Below, piece after piece: positions 2,781 through 8,191 of a DNA stretch of 42,057 nucleotides. The DNA is from Rhodococcus aetherivorans (GTDB lineage: Bacteria; Actinomycetota; Actinomycetes; Mycobacteriales; Mycobacteriaceae), in assembly GCF_011058165.1 (NCBI RefSeq), contig NZ_JAALEG010000055.1, positions 1-42,057 of the forward strand. Direction: 5' to 3'. Made by a program: the position numbers and the translations under genes. Each line of letters starts with the position of its first letter. Position 1 is the stretch's first letter. The notes beneath the pieces were generated by a model. That model was not told where the DNA came from. It saw nothing but the letters and a program-made list of their open reading frames with translations, and did not search any database.

Positions 2781-3707
2781 ATGGACACCGCGCTGCCGCC
2801 GCCCCTCGCCGTGCACCTCGAGGAGTTCGTCGAGCACCTCGACCTGCAGGGCGGCCGGTCGGCCCACACGATCCGCGCGTACACCACCGACATCCGCACC
2901 CTCCTCGCTCACCTCGAGGCCGGCCACCCGGATGCGCGGATCGCCGACCTCACTCTCGAGGTGCTCCGCTCCTGGCTCGCCGGCCAGGTGACGAGTGGCG
3001 CCGCCCGCACGACCCTGGCGCGGCGCACCTCGTCCGCCCGCACCTTCTGCGCGTGGCTGGCTCGCACGGGCCGGCTCGACCACGATCCCGCGGCGCGGCT
3101 GGCATCGGCCCGCACCCATCGCACTCTCCCGCCGGTGCTGCGTGCCGACCAGGCCTGTGAGGTGATGACCGCTGCGGAAGCCGGTGCGCGCGAGATGGAG
3201 CCGGTGGCACTGCGGGATCGGCTCGTGCTGGAACTGCTGTATGCGACGGGTATCCGGGTCGGTGAGCTGTGCGGACTCGACGTCGACGACGTCGACACCG
3301 AGCGCAGGGCGCTGCGCGTGGTCGGCAAGGGCAACAGGGAACGGACCGTGCCGTACGGGGCGCCCGCGGCCGCCGCGCTCGACGCGTGGCTGCGCACCGG
3401 GCGGCCCGCCCTCGCGCGCCCGGATTCGGGGCCCGCCCTGCTGCTCGGCAAACGCGGCGGTCGGCTGGGCCCGCGCCAGGTCCGTACCGTGGTCCACGAG
3501 ACCGTGGCCGCCGTCCCCGGCGCGCCGGATCTCGCGCCGCACGGGCTGCGGCACAGCGCCGCAACACACCTGCTCGAGGGGGGCGCCGACCTGCGGGTGG
3601 TGCAGGAGCTGCTGGGGCACTCGAGCCTGGCGACGACCCAGCTCTACACCCATGTCTCGGTAGCACGGCTGCGTGCGGCACACGAACAGGCGCATCCGCG
3701 GGCGTGA
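2781..3707 (+). CDS. xerC: Tyrosine recombinase XerC
   Basis: A 308-residue site-specific recombinase that, with XerD, resolves chromosome dimers at dif. An N-terminal SAM-like core-binding domain (residues 1-95, [22 protein letters not shown]) precedes the catalytic domain. Catalytic residues are visible: Arg159 in [11 protein letters not shown], the beta-hairpin Lys in [24 protein letters not shown] (His and Arg), [16 protein letters not shown], and the Tyr nucleophile at residue 289. I chose ATG 2781; an upstream in-frame GTG at 2745 would add 12 basic residues with no family support. The position between the siderophore gene and the rpsB region matches mycobacterial xerC, which argues against a phage integrase. 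Confidence 0.92.
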
Positions 3708-3781
3708 CCTGTACGCGGCGACGGCCGCGGCGCGGTTTGGTACGGTCGCCGCCGCATCTGCTGTGCAATCCGGGGGGATAA

Positions 3782-5323
3782 GTGGCATACGACGAGTCGA
3801 CGCACGCTCTGCCGGCCTGGCTTCGGGACGAGCCGGCGCCCGACCCGGCGCCGACCGGTCGCCGGGGCAGGCGACGGGGGAGTGACCGGACGGTCGGGGG
3901 GCCCGTCGAGGCCGAGCCGCCCGTGCAGCCGCCGGCGGCTGCCGAGCCCGTTCGCCTCCCGGCTCCGGTGCCGTCGATTCCGTTCGGCATGCCACCACGA
4001 CGCCGTCCCGACTCCGTGCCCGAATCGCCGGTCGTCGAACCCGCGATTCCCGAACCCGCGATTCCCGAGCCGGCGACGACCGAGCCGGCGACGACCGATC
4101 CGGCGGCGACGGAACCGGTGGTCGCCGAACCACCGGTAGCCGAAGCCGCGGTCACCGGGCCGGTAGCCGCCGAGGGTCCGGAAGAGGCCGTGCCGCCGAG
4201 TGATCCGGCGGGGCGTCGCCCCGCCGAGCCCGTGCCGGCTTCGCCGGAGTCCGGCTCGGAACCCGACGAGGTGCACCCGCGAATGTCGGAAGATGATGCG
4301 GGGCAGCGTTGTTCGACCATATCCGCGTCGTCCCGAGGGGTCTCGTCGGAGCTCGACGCGTCGGAGCCGCGGCCGTCGAACCTGGACCTGACCTCCGGTG
4401 CGCTCGTCCGGCGGTCCCGTCGCACCCCGGTGACCGGCTGGCGGCGCGGCGTGCACCGGCTCACCGGGGGAATCCTCGCGCCCGGCGAATCGGCCGACGA
4501 GGCACACAGGCGCGAGCTCGTCGACCGGGTCCGGCAGCCGATCAGCGGCGACTACCGGATCGCCGTGCTCTCCCTCAAGGGCGGTGTCGGAAAGACGACG
4601 ACCACCGTCGGGCTCGGCGCCACGTTCGCCTCGTTGCGGGGCGACTGCGTGATCGCGGTGGACGCGAATCCCGACTTCGGCACGCTCGCACAGCGGGTGC
4701 CGCAGCAGACCGAGTCCACGGTGCGCGACCTGCTCGCCGCGGCCCCGCGGATCTCCCGCTACTCCGATGTCCGCGCGCACACTTCTCAGGCACCGAGCCG
4801 CCTCGAGGTGCTTGCGAGTGAACGCGACCCGGCCGTGTCGGAGGCGTTCAGCGAGGACGACTACCGCCGGGTCGTGGACATCCTGCGGGTGTACTACAAC
4901 GTCGTCCTCACCGATTGCGGCACGGGCATCATGCATTCGGCCATGCGTGGTGTGCTCGCCCTCGCCCACGCCCTTGTGCTGGTCGCGTCCCCGGCGATCG
5001 ACGGCGCCCGGAGCGCCGCGGCGACCCTCGACTGGCTGCAGCACCACGGGTTCGGGGCGCTCGTCGAACGCACCGTCGTGGTGATCAGCGCCGCCCGGCC
5101 CGGGGCCACCAACATCGACATGGAGGCTGTGACGGGCCACTTCCTCGCGCGGTGCCGGGCCGTGCAGGTGGTGCCGTTCGACGAGCACCTCGCCGAGGGG
5201 GCCGAGATCGACCTCGGCCTGCTCCGCCCGGCCACCCGCCGGGCCTTCCTCGAGCTCGCCGCCATGGTCGCCGACGACTTCGCGACGGTGTCGGGGCGTC
5301 ACGCCGCCGGCCGTCGCGCGTAG
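3782..5323 (+). CDS. ParA/MinD-like ATPase with proline-rich N-terminal region (EspI-like architecture)
   Basis: A 513-residue protein in two parts. Residues 1-210 are low-complexity, rich in Pro, Glu and Ala, with a run of pentapeptides of the type EPAIP/EPATT (residues 86-125). Residues 255-505 form a ParA/MinD ATPase. It has the deviant Walker A motif LKGGVGKTTTT (about residues 265-275), the A' motif VDANPDFGTLAQ, and a Walker B region VVLTDCGTGI. The architecture resembles EspI (Rv3876) of ESX-1 and related actinobacterial ATPases that help position or regulate secretion, polar growth or partitioning machinery; the specific role is unknown. GTG 3782 is preceded by GGGGGGA. The stop codon TAG 5321-5323 lies inside the first copy of the 38-bp repeat, so the last residues (GRRA) are repeat-encoded. 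I do not recall an equivalent at this place in M. tuberculosis. Confidence 0.8.
   Translation: MAYDESTHALPAWLRDEPAPDPAPTGRRGRRRGSDRTVGGPVEAEPPVQPPAAAEPVRLPAPVPSIPFGMPPRRRPDSVPESPVVEPAIPEPAIPEPATTEPATTDPAATEPVVAEPPVAEAAVTGPVAAEGPEEAVPPSDPAGRRPAEPVPASPESGSEPDEVHPRMSEDDAGQRCSTISASSRGVSSELDASEPRPSNLDLTSGALVRRSRRTPVTGWRRGVHRLTGGILAPGESADEAHRRELVDRVRQPISGDYRIAVLSLKGGVGKTTTTVGLGATFASLRGDCVIAVDANPDFGTLAQRVPQQTESTVRDLLAAAPRISRYSDVRAHTSQAPSRLEVLASERDPAVSEAFSEDDYRRVVDILRVYYNVVLTDCGTGIMHSAMRGVLALAHALVLVASPAIDGARSAAATLDWLQHHGFGALVERTVVVISAARPGATNIDMEAVTGHFLARCRAVQVVPFDEHLAEGAEIDLGLLRPATRRAFLELAAMVADDFATVSGRHAAGRRA
4037..4156 (+). repeat. In-frame 15-bp repeats encoding EPxxx pentapeptides
   Basis: Eight consecutive 15-bp units inside the ParA-like gene. 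Units 1 and 2 (4037-4051, 4052-4066) are identical and encode EPAIP. Units 3 and 4 (4067-4081, 4082-4096) are identical and encode EPATT. The rest are degenerate (DPAAT, EPVVA, EPPVA, EAAVT). Identical neighbouring pairs point to recent tandem duplication, so the number of units may differ between strains. Confidence 0.9.
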
Positions 5324-5525
5324 CGGAGCGGAGCGGCGACCGGATGGGCCGTCGCGCGTAGCGGAGCGGAGCGGCGACCGGATGGGCCGTCGCGCGTAGC
5401 GGAGCGGAGCCGCGACCTGATGGTCCGTCGCGCGTAGCGGAGCGGAGCCGCGACCTGATGGTCCGTCGCGCGTAGCGGAGCGGAGCCGCGACCTGATCGG
5501 CCGTCGCGCGTAGCGGAGCCGCGGC
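5311..5525 (+). repeat. Array of 38-bp direct tandem repeats (5 full copies plus a partial)
   Basis: Copies start at 5311, 5349, 5387, 5425, 5463 and 5501, exactly 38 bp apart; the last is shortened. Each starts CCGTCGCGCGTAGCGGAGCG. Copies 1-2 continue with GGCGACCGGATGGG and copies 3-5 with CCGCGACCTGAT, so variants sit next to their own kind. In copies 3-5 GTCGCG and CGCGAC form a 6-bp inverted repeat around a 16-base loop. The array begins inside the last codons of the ParA-like gene and provides its stop, and ends where the convergent M23 gene should stop. There are no unique spacers, so it is not a CRISPR. Confidence 0.95.
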
Positions 5526-6013
5526 CTACGGGAAACCGGCTGGAGACGGATCACCGACCGCACGAGCGGCAGAGGGTCGAGGTAGTCGTCGCGGTCCCGG
5601 CGCAGACCCCAGTGCAGGCAGGCCGGGGCGCGGCAGCCCTCGTGGCCCGGTTCGAGGGTGCCGAGCGGATCACCCCGTTCCACGCGCCGGCCGGCCGTCA
5701 CCGTCGCGGTCACCGGCTCGTAGGTGGTGCGCAGCCCGCCGGCGTGCGCCACCGAGACGACGGGTTTGCCGGCGACGGTCCCGGCGAACACCACCACCCC
5801 GGCGCCGGCGGCGAGCACCGGCTGACCGGGCCGGCCGGTGAGGTCGGCGCCGCGGTGTCCGGGAAGCCAGTCGTGCTCGGGACCGTCGAAGGGGCGGGCC
5901 AAGGTCGGCCGTGGATGCAGCGGCCAGCCGAACTCGCGCGGGGCGGCCGCGGCGGGAACCGAACCCGCGAGCGCGGTGAGCGCGGTCAGGACGGCGATCC
6001 CGGCGATCTTCAT
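5526..6013 (-). CDS. Secreted M23-family peptidase (LytM-like); 3' end irregular
   Basis: An exported cell-wall peptidase of about 160 residues, with a signal peptide [17 protein letters not shown] ending at PAAAA. The M23 domain follows: HRGADL supplies the Zn-binding HxxxD, and the second motif reads CLHWG, with Cys in place of the first His of the usual HxH. Two nearby Cys (EGCRAPAC) could form a disulfide. The family normally stops soon after [14 protein letters not shown]. Here no in-frame stop follows: the frame runs through the whole 38-bp array and antisense across the ParA-like gene to 3644. A TAG at 5528-5526 is off frame by two bases. I place the end there provisionally and suspect a frameshift, a lost stop or a sequencing error. 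The counterpart I recall is Rv2891, next to rpsB. Confidence 0.7.
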
Positions 6014-6334
6014 CCGCCCAGCGTGCCGGGCGGCGCCGGCGTGCGACAGGGCCTCGTCGACATTGTGGACAACCACCCGATCCATCCACAGATCGGCCGA
6101 ACCGGCCTGCTGATCAGGCAGTTGTGGTTCCCGCGGGGCAAGGCCGTACACTGTTCGAGCGGTCTGTGTTCGCAGATCGACTTCGCGCGTCCGCGCGCTG
6201 ATCGCCGCCCGGTGTGCCGGGCGCCATCGGAAAATGGCCGTCGGCCGGTCCCGCAAGGGTCCGACGGGCATGCGGACGCCAGGGCGGGGATCACCCGATC
6301 TCCCGCGGCAACCGAACCGAAAGAGAGAACAGCC
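6014..6334. other. Intergenic region between the M23 peptidase and rpsB, with a candidate rpsB promoter
   Basis: 321 bases without a convincing gene, between divergently transcribed genes. A possible sigma-A-type promoter for rpsB is TTGTGG (6122-6127) and TACACT (6147-6152), with a 19-base spacer, slightly longer than ideal. This would leave a leader of about 180 bases. Long leaders of r-protein genes can hold autoregulatory structures, but I could not identify one by eye. Confidence 0.4.
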
Positions 6335-7207
6335 ATGGCTGTCGTAACAATGAAGCAGCTGCTCGACAGCGGCGCCCACTTCGGCCACCAGACCCGTCGC
6401 TGGAACCCGAAGATGAAGCGGTTCATCTTCACCGACCGCAACGGCATCTACATCATCGACCTGCAGCAGACCCTGACGTACATCGACAAGGCGTACGAGT
6501 TCATCAAGGAGACGGTCGCCCACGGTGGCACCGTGCTGTTCGTCGGCACCAAGAAGCAGGCGCAGGAGTCCATCGCGGAAGAGGCCACCCGGGTCGGGAT
6601 GCCCTACGTGAACCAGCGCTGGCTCGGCGGCATGCTCACCAACTTCTCCACCGTCCACAAGCGCCTGCAGCGCCTGAAGGAGCTGGAGTCGATGGAGCAG
6701 ACCGGTGGCTTCGAGGGTCGCACCAAGAAGGAAATTCTCATGCTCACGCGTGAGAAGACCAAGCTCGAGCGCACCCTCGGCGGCATCCGCGACATGGCCA
6801 AGGTGCCGTCGGCGATCTGGGTCGTCGACACCAACAAGGAGCACATCGCCGTCGGCGAGGCCCGCAAGCTGAACATCCCGGTCGTTGCGATCCTCGACAC
6901 CAACTGCGATCCCGACGTCGTCGACTACCCGATCCCGGGCAACGACGACGCGATCCGGTCGGCCGCGCTGCTGACCAAGGTCGTCGCCTCCGCCGTCGCC
7001 GAGGGCGTGCAGGCCCGTGCCGGCCAGAGCGCCGACAAGGACGCCAAGCCGGAGTCCGGCGCCGGCGAGCCGCTCGCCGAGTGGGAGCAGGAGCTGCTCG
7101 CGCAGGCCACCCCCGCCGCCGAGGCCGAGGCTCCGGCCGCCGAGGCCGAGGCCCCCGCCGCCGACGCGGCGCCCTCCGCCGACGCGGCGCCCTCCGCCGA
7201 AGCCTGA
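6335..7207 (+). CDS. rpsB: 30S ribosomal protein S2
   Basis: A 290-residue ribosomal protein S2. It begins [20 protein letters not shown], with the S2 signatures [23 protein letters not shown] and the C-terminal [14 protein letters not shown]. It binds the head-body junction of the 30S subunit. ATG 6335 is preceded by AAGAGAGAA. After the S2 fold (about residue 240) there is an Ala/Glu/Pro-rich tail built from two short DNA duplications (7118-7159 and 7163-7198), as in other high-GC actinobacteria. It is followed by tsf with a stem-loop between them, the conserved rpsB-tsf pair. Confidence 0.97.
7118..7198 (+). repeat. Two adjacent tandem duplications in the rpsB C-terminal tail
   Basis: A 21-bp unit at 7118-7138 recurs at 7139-7159 with two differences, encoding AEAEAPA twice. 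An 18-bp unit at 7163-7180 (GACGCGGCGCCCTCCGCC) is repeated exactly at 7181-7198, encoding DAAPSA twice. Both keep the frame. Confidence 0.92.
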
Positions 7208-7217
7208 TCCGATGCGC

Positions 7218-7255
7218 GGCCCCGACCGGTAGATCCTGAGATCATGGTCGGGGCC
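7218..7255 (+). terminator. Stem-loop between rpsB and tsf
   Basis: GGCCCCGACC (7218-7227) pairs perfectly with GGTCGGGGCC (7246-7255). The loop holds a further GATC/GATC pairing. No U-run follows. It could attenuate transcription into tsf or stabilise the rpsB transcript. Confidence 0.6.
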
Positions 7256-7260
7256 GTCGC

Positions 7261-7309
7261 ACGCGACCGCGCCGCATCAGTGCACACGCACGCGACCGAG
7301 CCGCATCAG
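7261..7309 (+). repeat. 20-bp direct repeat upstream of tsf
   Basis: ACGCGACCGCGCCGCATCAG at 7261-7280 recurs at 7290-7309 with one mismatch, 29 bases apart, just upstream of the tsf ribosome binding site AGGAGG (7351-7356). No function is evident. Confidence 0.8.
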
Positions 7310-7366
7310 AGGAAACTCCCGCGCGAGCACCCATCGCGCACAACAGACACAGGAGGCTCGCTTCCC

Positions 7367-8191
7367 ATGGCGAACTACACCGCCGCCGACGTCAAGCGTC
7401 TGCGTGAGCTCACCGGCTCCGGAATGCTGGCGTGCAAGAACGCGCTCGCCGACAACGACGGCGACTTCGACAAGGCCGTCGAGCAGCTGCGCATCAAGGG
7501 CGCCAAGGACGTGGGCAAGCGCGCCGAGCGCTCCACCGCCGAGGGCCTGGTCGCCGCGAAGAACGGCGTGCTCATCGAGCTCAACTCCGAGACCGACTTC
7601 GTCGCCAAGAACGACGAGTTCCAGGCTCTCGCCGAGAAGATCGTCACCGCTGCGGCCGAGGCCAAGCCCGCCGACCTCGAGGCCCTCAAGGCTGTCGAGG
7701 TGGACGGCAAGACCGTCGACACCCTGGTGCAGGAGCTCTCCGCCAAGATCGGCGAGAAGCTCGAACTGCGCCGCCTCGCCGTGTTCGACGGCCCCGTCGC
7801 CGTGTACCTGCACAAGCGTGCGTCCGACCTGCCGCCGGCCGTCGGCGTGCTCGTCGAGTACTCCGGTGAGGGCGACGCCGCCGCCGATGCCGCCCGCGCC
7901 GCCGCGATGCAGGTCGCCGCGCTGAAGGCGAAGTACCTCACCCGCGACGAGGTCCCGGCCGACACGGTCGAGAACGAGCGCCGCATCGCGGAGGAGACCG
8001 CCAAGAACGAGGGCAAGCCGGAGGCCGCCCTGCCGAAGATCGTCGAGGGCCGTCTCAACGGCTTCTTCAAGGACGTCGTGCTGCTCGAGCAGGCCTCGGT
8101 GACGGACTCGAAGAAGACCGTCAAGGCGCTGCTCGACGAGGCCGGCGCCACCGTCTCGCGCTTCGTGCGTTTCGAGGTCGGCGCCAGCTAG
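7367..8191 (+). CDS. tsf: Elongation factor Ts
   Basis: A 274-residue guanine-nucleotide exchange factor for EF-Tu. The N-terminal UBA-like domain [20 protein letters not shown] is followed by the EF-Ts signature [15 protein letters not shown] and the two-lobed core, with [10 protein letters not shown]. Family length for actinobacteria is about 270-275. ATG 7367 follows a strong AGGAGG at 7351-7356. It forms the usual pair with rpsB and is followed by a strong hairpin. Confidence 0.97.

Follow-up and report, generated by a model that had tools for sequence, protein, structure and literature searches.

The stretch of DNA analyzed here (the window, 42,057 nucleotides from Rhodococcus aetherivorans) carries a ParA/MinD-like ATPase gene at positions 3782 to 5323 of the plus strand (Pfam matches CbiA and AAA_31) and, facing it on the minus strand, an M23 peptidase gene, of which positions 5525 to 6013 were compared with relatives. 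Where the two genes meet lies a 38-bp tandem array at 5309 to 5519 (plus strand; 5.6 copies, 97% matches). With a TRF score of 373 it is the top-scoring TRF row in the window; the next best of the 16 rows scores 96. Copies 1 to 5 are 38 bp each. Copy 1 (5309 to 5346) and copy 2 (5347 to 5384) have the same sequence, copies 3 to 5 (5385 to 5498) form a second variant and differ pairwise by one to two bases, and the partial copy 6 (5499 to 5526) lacks five bases of the unit. The units run head to tail as direct repeats and their size is within the range of about 10 to 100 bp, as in minisatellites. An earlier note on this DNA had described a period-38 array of five full copies and one partial copy; TRF and the listing of copies bore this out, only its limits (5311-5525) being off by a few bases. 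It had also grouped the variants correctly (1-2 and 3-5, the copies not being all identical). The local duplication it proposed is supported by the copy comparison, in which the most similar copies are neighboring ones, and by locally derived arrays at the orthologous junction of other species. It is extremely unlikely that the array is a product of assembly with a wrong or collapsed copy number. The array spans 211 bp in a draft of 216 contigs (6.43 Mb), yet the variant copies stand in order within one contig and a similar array is found in genome G004, assembled into 3 contigs.

Copy 1 supplies the last codons of the ParA-like gene and its TAG stop (5321 to 5323, plus strand), where the open reading frame ends as the earlier note had read it. 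The M23 frame, starting with ATG at 6013 on the minus strand, shows no stop until 3644, past the start of the ParA-like gene on the opposite strand. It is thus open from 5524 down to 3644, across the array and the entire antisense of ParA. Within the array there are no stops on the minus strand in any frame, and the plus strand has them in all three. Our computation agreed with the note on the stop-free strand, but 66% of random 38-mers from sampled stretches of this genome, when repeated, are likewise stop-free on one strand, so this property is unremarkable at 72% G+C. The closest named relative of the M23 gene is that of R. ruber NBRC 15591 (91% identity). In nine other Rhodococcus the M23 gene ends 0 to 9 codons past a ...PV motif, exactly there in four. 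Neither R. ruber nor the window has a stop at this place; the R. ruber stop lies 60 bases past the query match. On the M23 strand, the three frames downstream of the array end at 3644, 5299 and 5085. With the usual M23 stop missing and each 38-bp copy shifting the reading frame, the number of copies sets the frame in which M23 leaves the array and, with it, the predicted C-terminus.

Folding and spread of the repeat unit

The unit contains the six-base inverted repeat GTCGCG/CGCGAC, whose pairing had been pointed out in the earlier note. Over 11 units, 59 of the 60 stem cells are paired, with one double change from T-A to C-G between two loci that may be a single event. This pairing, and the position between convergent genes, would suit a functional hairpin, i.e., a REP-like bidirectional terminator or mRNA 3' stabilizer that expanded at the junction. 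However, six stretches taken from the full unit and the partial copy on both strands gave fold z-scores between -0.85 and 0.65, no improvement on shuffled sequence. The window unit has a z of about +1 in a comparison of units from six genomes. The whole array folds worse than shuffles (z of +1.9 to +2.3): whether treated as RNA of either strand or as DNA of the plus strand, its fold was equaled or surpassed by at least 197 of 200 shuffles. Intrinsic terminators consist of a G+C hairpin followed by a T-run. The array resembles them in having an inverted repeat after a stop codon and differs in having no T-run and no stability above shuffles. Four terminator-like sites were found in 3500-7500, none of them within 5309-5530, and Rfam covariance models gave no match at E<=1 in 4900-6400. 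In the six genomes, the stop-covering units fold slightly better than shuffles (mean z -1.05, n = 16); the mean for 17 in-gene units is -0.44. The tendency is mild, and the window unit does not follow it. The hairpin/terminator reading was rejected, and with it the bidirectional terminator and the mRNA stabilizer suggested in the earlier note; a functional hairpin is in our judgment very improbable.

REP/REPIN elements have many dispersed extragenic copies, a stable palindromic hairpin and an associated RAYT transposase. Like REP, REPIN and BIME sequences, the array unit is short, has an inverted repeat and is found at gene ends; unlike them, it lacks a stable hairpin and is not dispersed. Of the ten occurrences of the core YCGCGCGWAGCGRAGC in the window genome, six belong to the ParA array and four to a single other array, on contig C206. 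The 17 other genomes of the genus have three occurrences between them, about equal to or below the reversed control. A 20-base core with at most one mismatch is present in 2 of 301 family genomes, the window genome and G006 (taken to be R. ruber). A profile of 11 units was searched against the 18 genus genomes, with 150 first-look candidates scored per genome. Good scores went only to copies in three known arrays, 10 of them in the window genome and 3 in G006. The remaining matches had E values of 0.009 or worse and numbered 12 in the window genome, 11 in G006 and 4 to 10 per genome elsewhere (16 genomes). A REP-like family, as the earlier note had proposed, was rejected on these pattern and profile searches. 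The note had named uniqueness of the unit as an outcome that would speak against its reading; the unit is nearly unique, the one exception found being a second array at the stop of another gene.

This second array (L187:7160-7298, on C206) has a 33-bp period and 4.2 copies, the first copy being 38 bp, and lies after an ABC-ATPase gene. TRF places its start on the last base of the TAG, and stop cover there was judged by eye. G006 has a 39-bp array of 3.8 copies at the same ABC-ATPase gene end. In both arrays the first copy encodes the end RRA-stop, as at ParA and in the same register. Among the 15 other genus genomes none has an array covering the ABC stop; in G017 a 20-bp repeat of two copies lies 25 bases beyond it. 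In 14 of these 15 the ABC gene ends in GRHRR or a near variant (GRHRR-stop, GRHRRG-stop, GRHRVHV-stop), without RRA. The core is common to two gene ends of one lineage. A single degraded copy of the unit, without the TAG, may be present at the R. ruber ParA end, which aligns with the ABC unit at a score of 34.5; this score is exceeded by 7 of 13280 overlapping windows of the G006 DNA examined, 3 of which are the ABC array itself.

These observations bring up a 3'-end element, small and either mobile or recombining: a sequence of about 30 bp with its own stop (RRA-stop) that would have been copied to a second gene end before R. ruber and the window species diverged, and would then have expanded at both ends. 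The shared core and register, the absence of RRA from most other ABC ends and the R. ruber alignment are in its favor. The left half of the unit encodes HRRA, which makes the ABC end a likely source. Against it, only two loci were found in 6.4 Mb (with 150 of 23991 first-look candidates scored), the shuffled R. ruber stretch reaches a score of 38 (maximum of 2000; mean 19.8, sd 3.5) and the window unit fits the R. ruber ParA stretch less well (25.0). In addition, the ABC gene of G007, with no array, ends in HRRRA-stop, so that such an end can arise alone. We regard this element as unlikely, much less so than the hairpin.

The ParA/M23 junction in other Rhodococcus genomes

ParA lies beside M23 in convergent orientation in 24 distinct Rhodococcus genomes, i.e., 16 of the 18 genus genomes (G001 and G012 were left out, ParA not being adjacent) and 8 further named ones. 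Loci L048 to L052 duplicate genus genomes and were counted once. In the named Rhodococcus loci L060, L064, L065 and L072, a convergent ParA match was absent from the stretch examined. Five of the 24 junctions carry arrays, and in all five the ParA stop is covered: the window (38 bp, 5.6 copies), G004 (24 bp, 4.6 copies), G015 (= L051; 25 bp, 3.4 copies), G011 (= L052; 23 bp, 2.4 copies) and R. koreensis (29 bp, 2.7 copies). A weak 12-bp repeat in G016 (score 43), 95 bases from the stop, was excluded from the count. The units differ between species: nine of the ten pairs are no closer than chance, with 10 to 87% of letter-shuffled controls reaching the same score, and the pair of G004 and R. 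koreensis is slightly above that level (3.4%). The G004 unit is the last eight codons of its own ParA gene (SGRHAGR-stop), stop included; G008 has this stretch once, differing at one base. The AEWR-stop end found once in R. opacus is the repeated part in R. koreensis. The window unit, unlike that of G004, has no match at the ParA end of the relatives compared. Without the window, arrays are present at 4 of 23 ParA/M23 junctions compared with 6 of 339 convergent junctions in the sampled genomes (P about 0.0007, for a junction that was picked because of the window array). In R. opacus (L053:3438-3441), convergent M23 and ParA genes appear to overlap in one CTAG stop.

Arrays with a period of at least 15 near the M23 end (from 60 bases short of where the M23 match ends to 300 bases past the M23 stop) were found in 16 of 80 named loci, some of them in other genera. 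The 62 loci outside Rhodococcus contain three strict extragenic arrays, one of them on a stop (L091), too few to serve as a control.

Placement of arrays in six genomes

The survey sample was 2.44 Mb from six Rhodococcus genomes, with gene calls by a simple purpose-made finder. The finder cut ParA at 4430 and missed M23 in the window, so some gene labels are wrong. Under a strict filter (period of at least 15, 2.3 copies, 85% match), 18 arrays have a period not divisible by three. None of these is inside a gene (14.3 expected for random placement) and 11 are on a stop (1.5 expected); five are in divergent gaps, one is in a convergent gap and one at an edge. Arrays with a period divisible by three number 64, of which 38 are inside genes and 5 on a stop (3.9 expected). 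Under looser limits (period of at least 12, score 50), 9 of the 18 window-genome arrays whose period is no multiple of three, and 2 of the 6 in G004, fall within genes; in the rows listed these have about two copies. The absence from genes thus holds only under the strict filter.

Among extragenic arrays with a period of at least 19, 12 of 25 cover a stop, or 10 of 20 once four stretches selected for a known array are removed, compared with a null of 10%. Coding bases were limited in this count to 30 or one period, whichever is less, and the filter dropped four stop-covering arrays (L204, two in L216, and L224). The C206 array was scored as not stop-covering because of its TRF start on the last base of the TAG. 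When placement was compared within the same junctions, stop cover was seen in 6 of 6 convergent cases (4.6 expected, P 0.12), in 4 of 7 co-directional cases (1.05 expected, P 0.008) and in 10 of 13 combined (5.6 expected, P 0.001). At convergent junctions the intergenic gaps are so short that stop cover is largely unavoidable, and compact gene ends and short gaps account for much of the overall excess. Arrays are about as frequent at divergent (5/346) as at convergent junctions (6/339; P 0.77), and co-directional junctions carry fewer (7/1350, P 0.03). Fail-safe stops in all frames as a selected trait were considered and rejected: 11 of 16 stop-covering periods are not divisible by three, which equals chance. 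At the 17 array-bearing gene ends, 13 genes were scanned and 9 had Pfam matches.

A few single arrays from the survey may be mentioned. Related 26-bp arrays lie on the stop of a 412-aa gene with no Pfam match in two genomes (L198:16920-17010 and L269:17486-17559), a pair that seems to have outlived a speciation. In the window genome, a 23-bp array of 7.3 copies lies on the stop of a DFP/flavoprotein gene (L171:7376-7541). The window itself has a 29-bp repeat of 2.3 copies at 7258-7323, in the gap between two co-directional genes, presumably rpsB and tsf.

Origin of the array and its place among known repeats

We conclude, with a probability of roughly 0.7, that the array is a locally generated, VNTR-like minisatellite that arose by tandem duplication across a stop codon. 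In this reading, replication slippage or unequal recombination probably produced a first tandem duplicate of a short stretch with the last ParA-like codons and the stop, and further copies were added later. Duplication over the stop would leave the upstream protein intact. With the stop retained in the first copy, such a duplication would be nearly cost-free, and arrays would persist at gene ends; we also infer that copy number changes between strains. The confinement of the unit to two loci, the differing arrays on the ParA stop (5 of 24 junctions), the G004 unit and the strict-filter counts (0 of 18 in genes, 11 of 18 on a stop) all argue for this origin. On the other side, the same core of about 30 bp stands at the unrelated ABC-ATPase stop, here and in G006, and a purely local origin at ParA gives no explanation for that second array. 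The lack of a match for the window unit among the ParA ends of relatives, the convergent cover largely forced by short gaps and the in-gene arrays under the looser filter also weigh against it. In our view, tolerance accounts for most of the placement pattern: duplication of a stop spares the protein, and an in-gene array with a period not divisible by three does not. A wider proposal, which we hold to be doubtful, is that Rhodococcus has a class of stop-seated minisatellites (mostly 23-31 bp) that arise by recurrent duplication of 3' ends, with hotspots such as ParA/M23. Their formation would be promoted at gene ends (by transcription end, head-on transcription or ribosome release) beyond what tolerance allows, and copy number would switch the C-terminus of a stop-less convergent neighbor.

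Bacterial minisatellites (VNTR) likewise have head-to-tail units of tens of bases and locus-specific sequence, between genes or at gene ends. Here, unlike in those, the unit spans a stop codon and the same junction has different arrays across species. For the TAACTGA direct repeats of Beggiatoaceae, it has been argued in print that stop-carrying repeats are confined to ORF ends, and 13 sets overlap the stop of the upstream gene (PMC4679880). The likeness lies in stop-carrying units over an upstream stop. Those repeats differ in that a single 7-base sequence recurs at a great many sites, mostly before start codons (PMC4679880), compared with 38 bases and two loci here. The MIRU of mycobacteria, which are related actinobacteria, also consist of short tandem units and lie at gene borders. 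MIRU are inserted at start codons with a coupled ORF (PMC12548453), whereas the present unit lies on a stop codon between convergent genes, at two loci. In a literature search, stop-codon-seated minisatellites were not reported as a class among the matches listed.

The array is an ordinary kind of repeat at an instructive location. The ParA/M23 junction offers a countable case of repeat birth, with several congeneric species carrying different arrays on the same stop. Ordinary comparative data would allow a test of where minisatellites originate and of whether gene ends favor their formation or simply tolerate them. Should strains differ in copy number, the arrays would provide typing loci for Rhodococcus.
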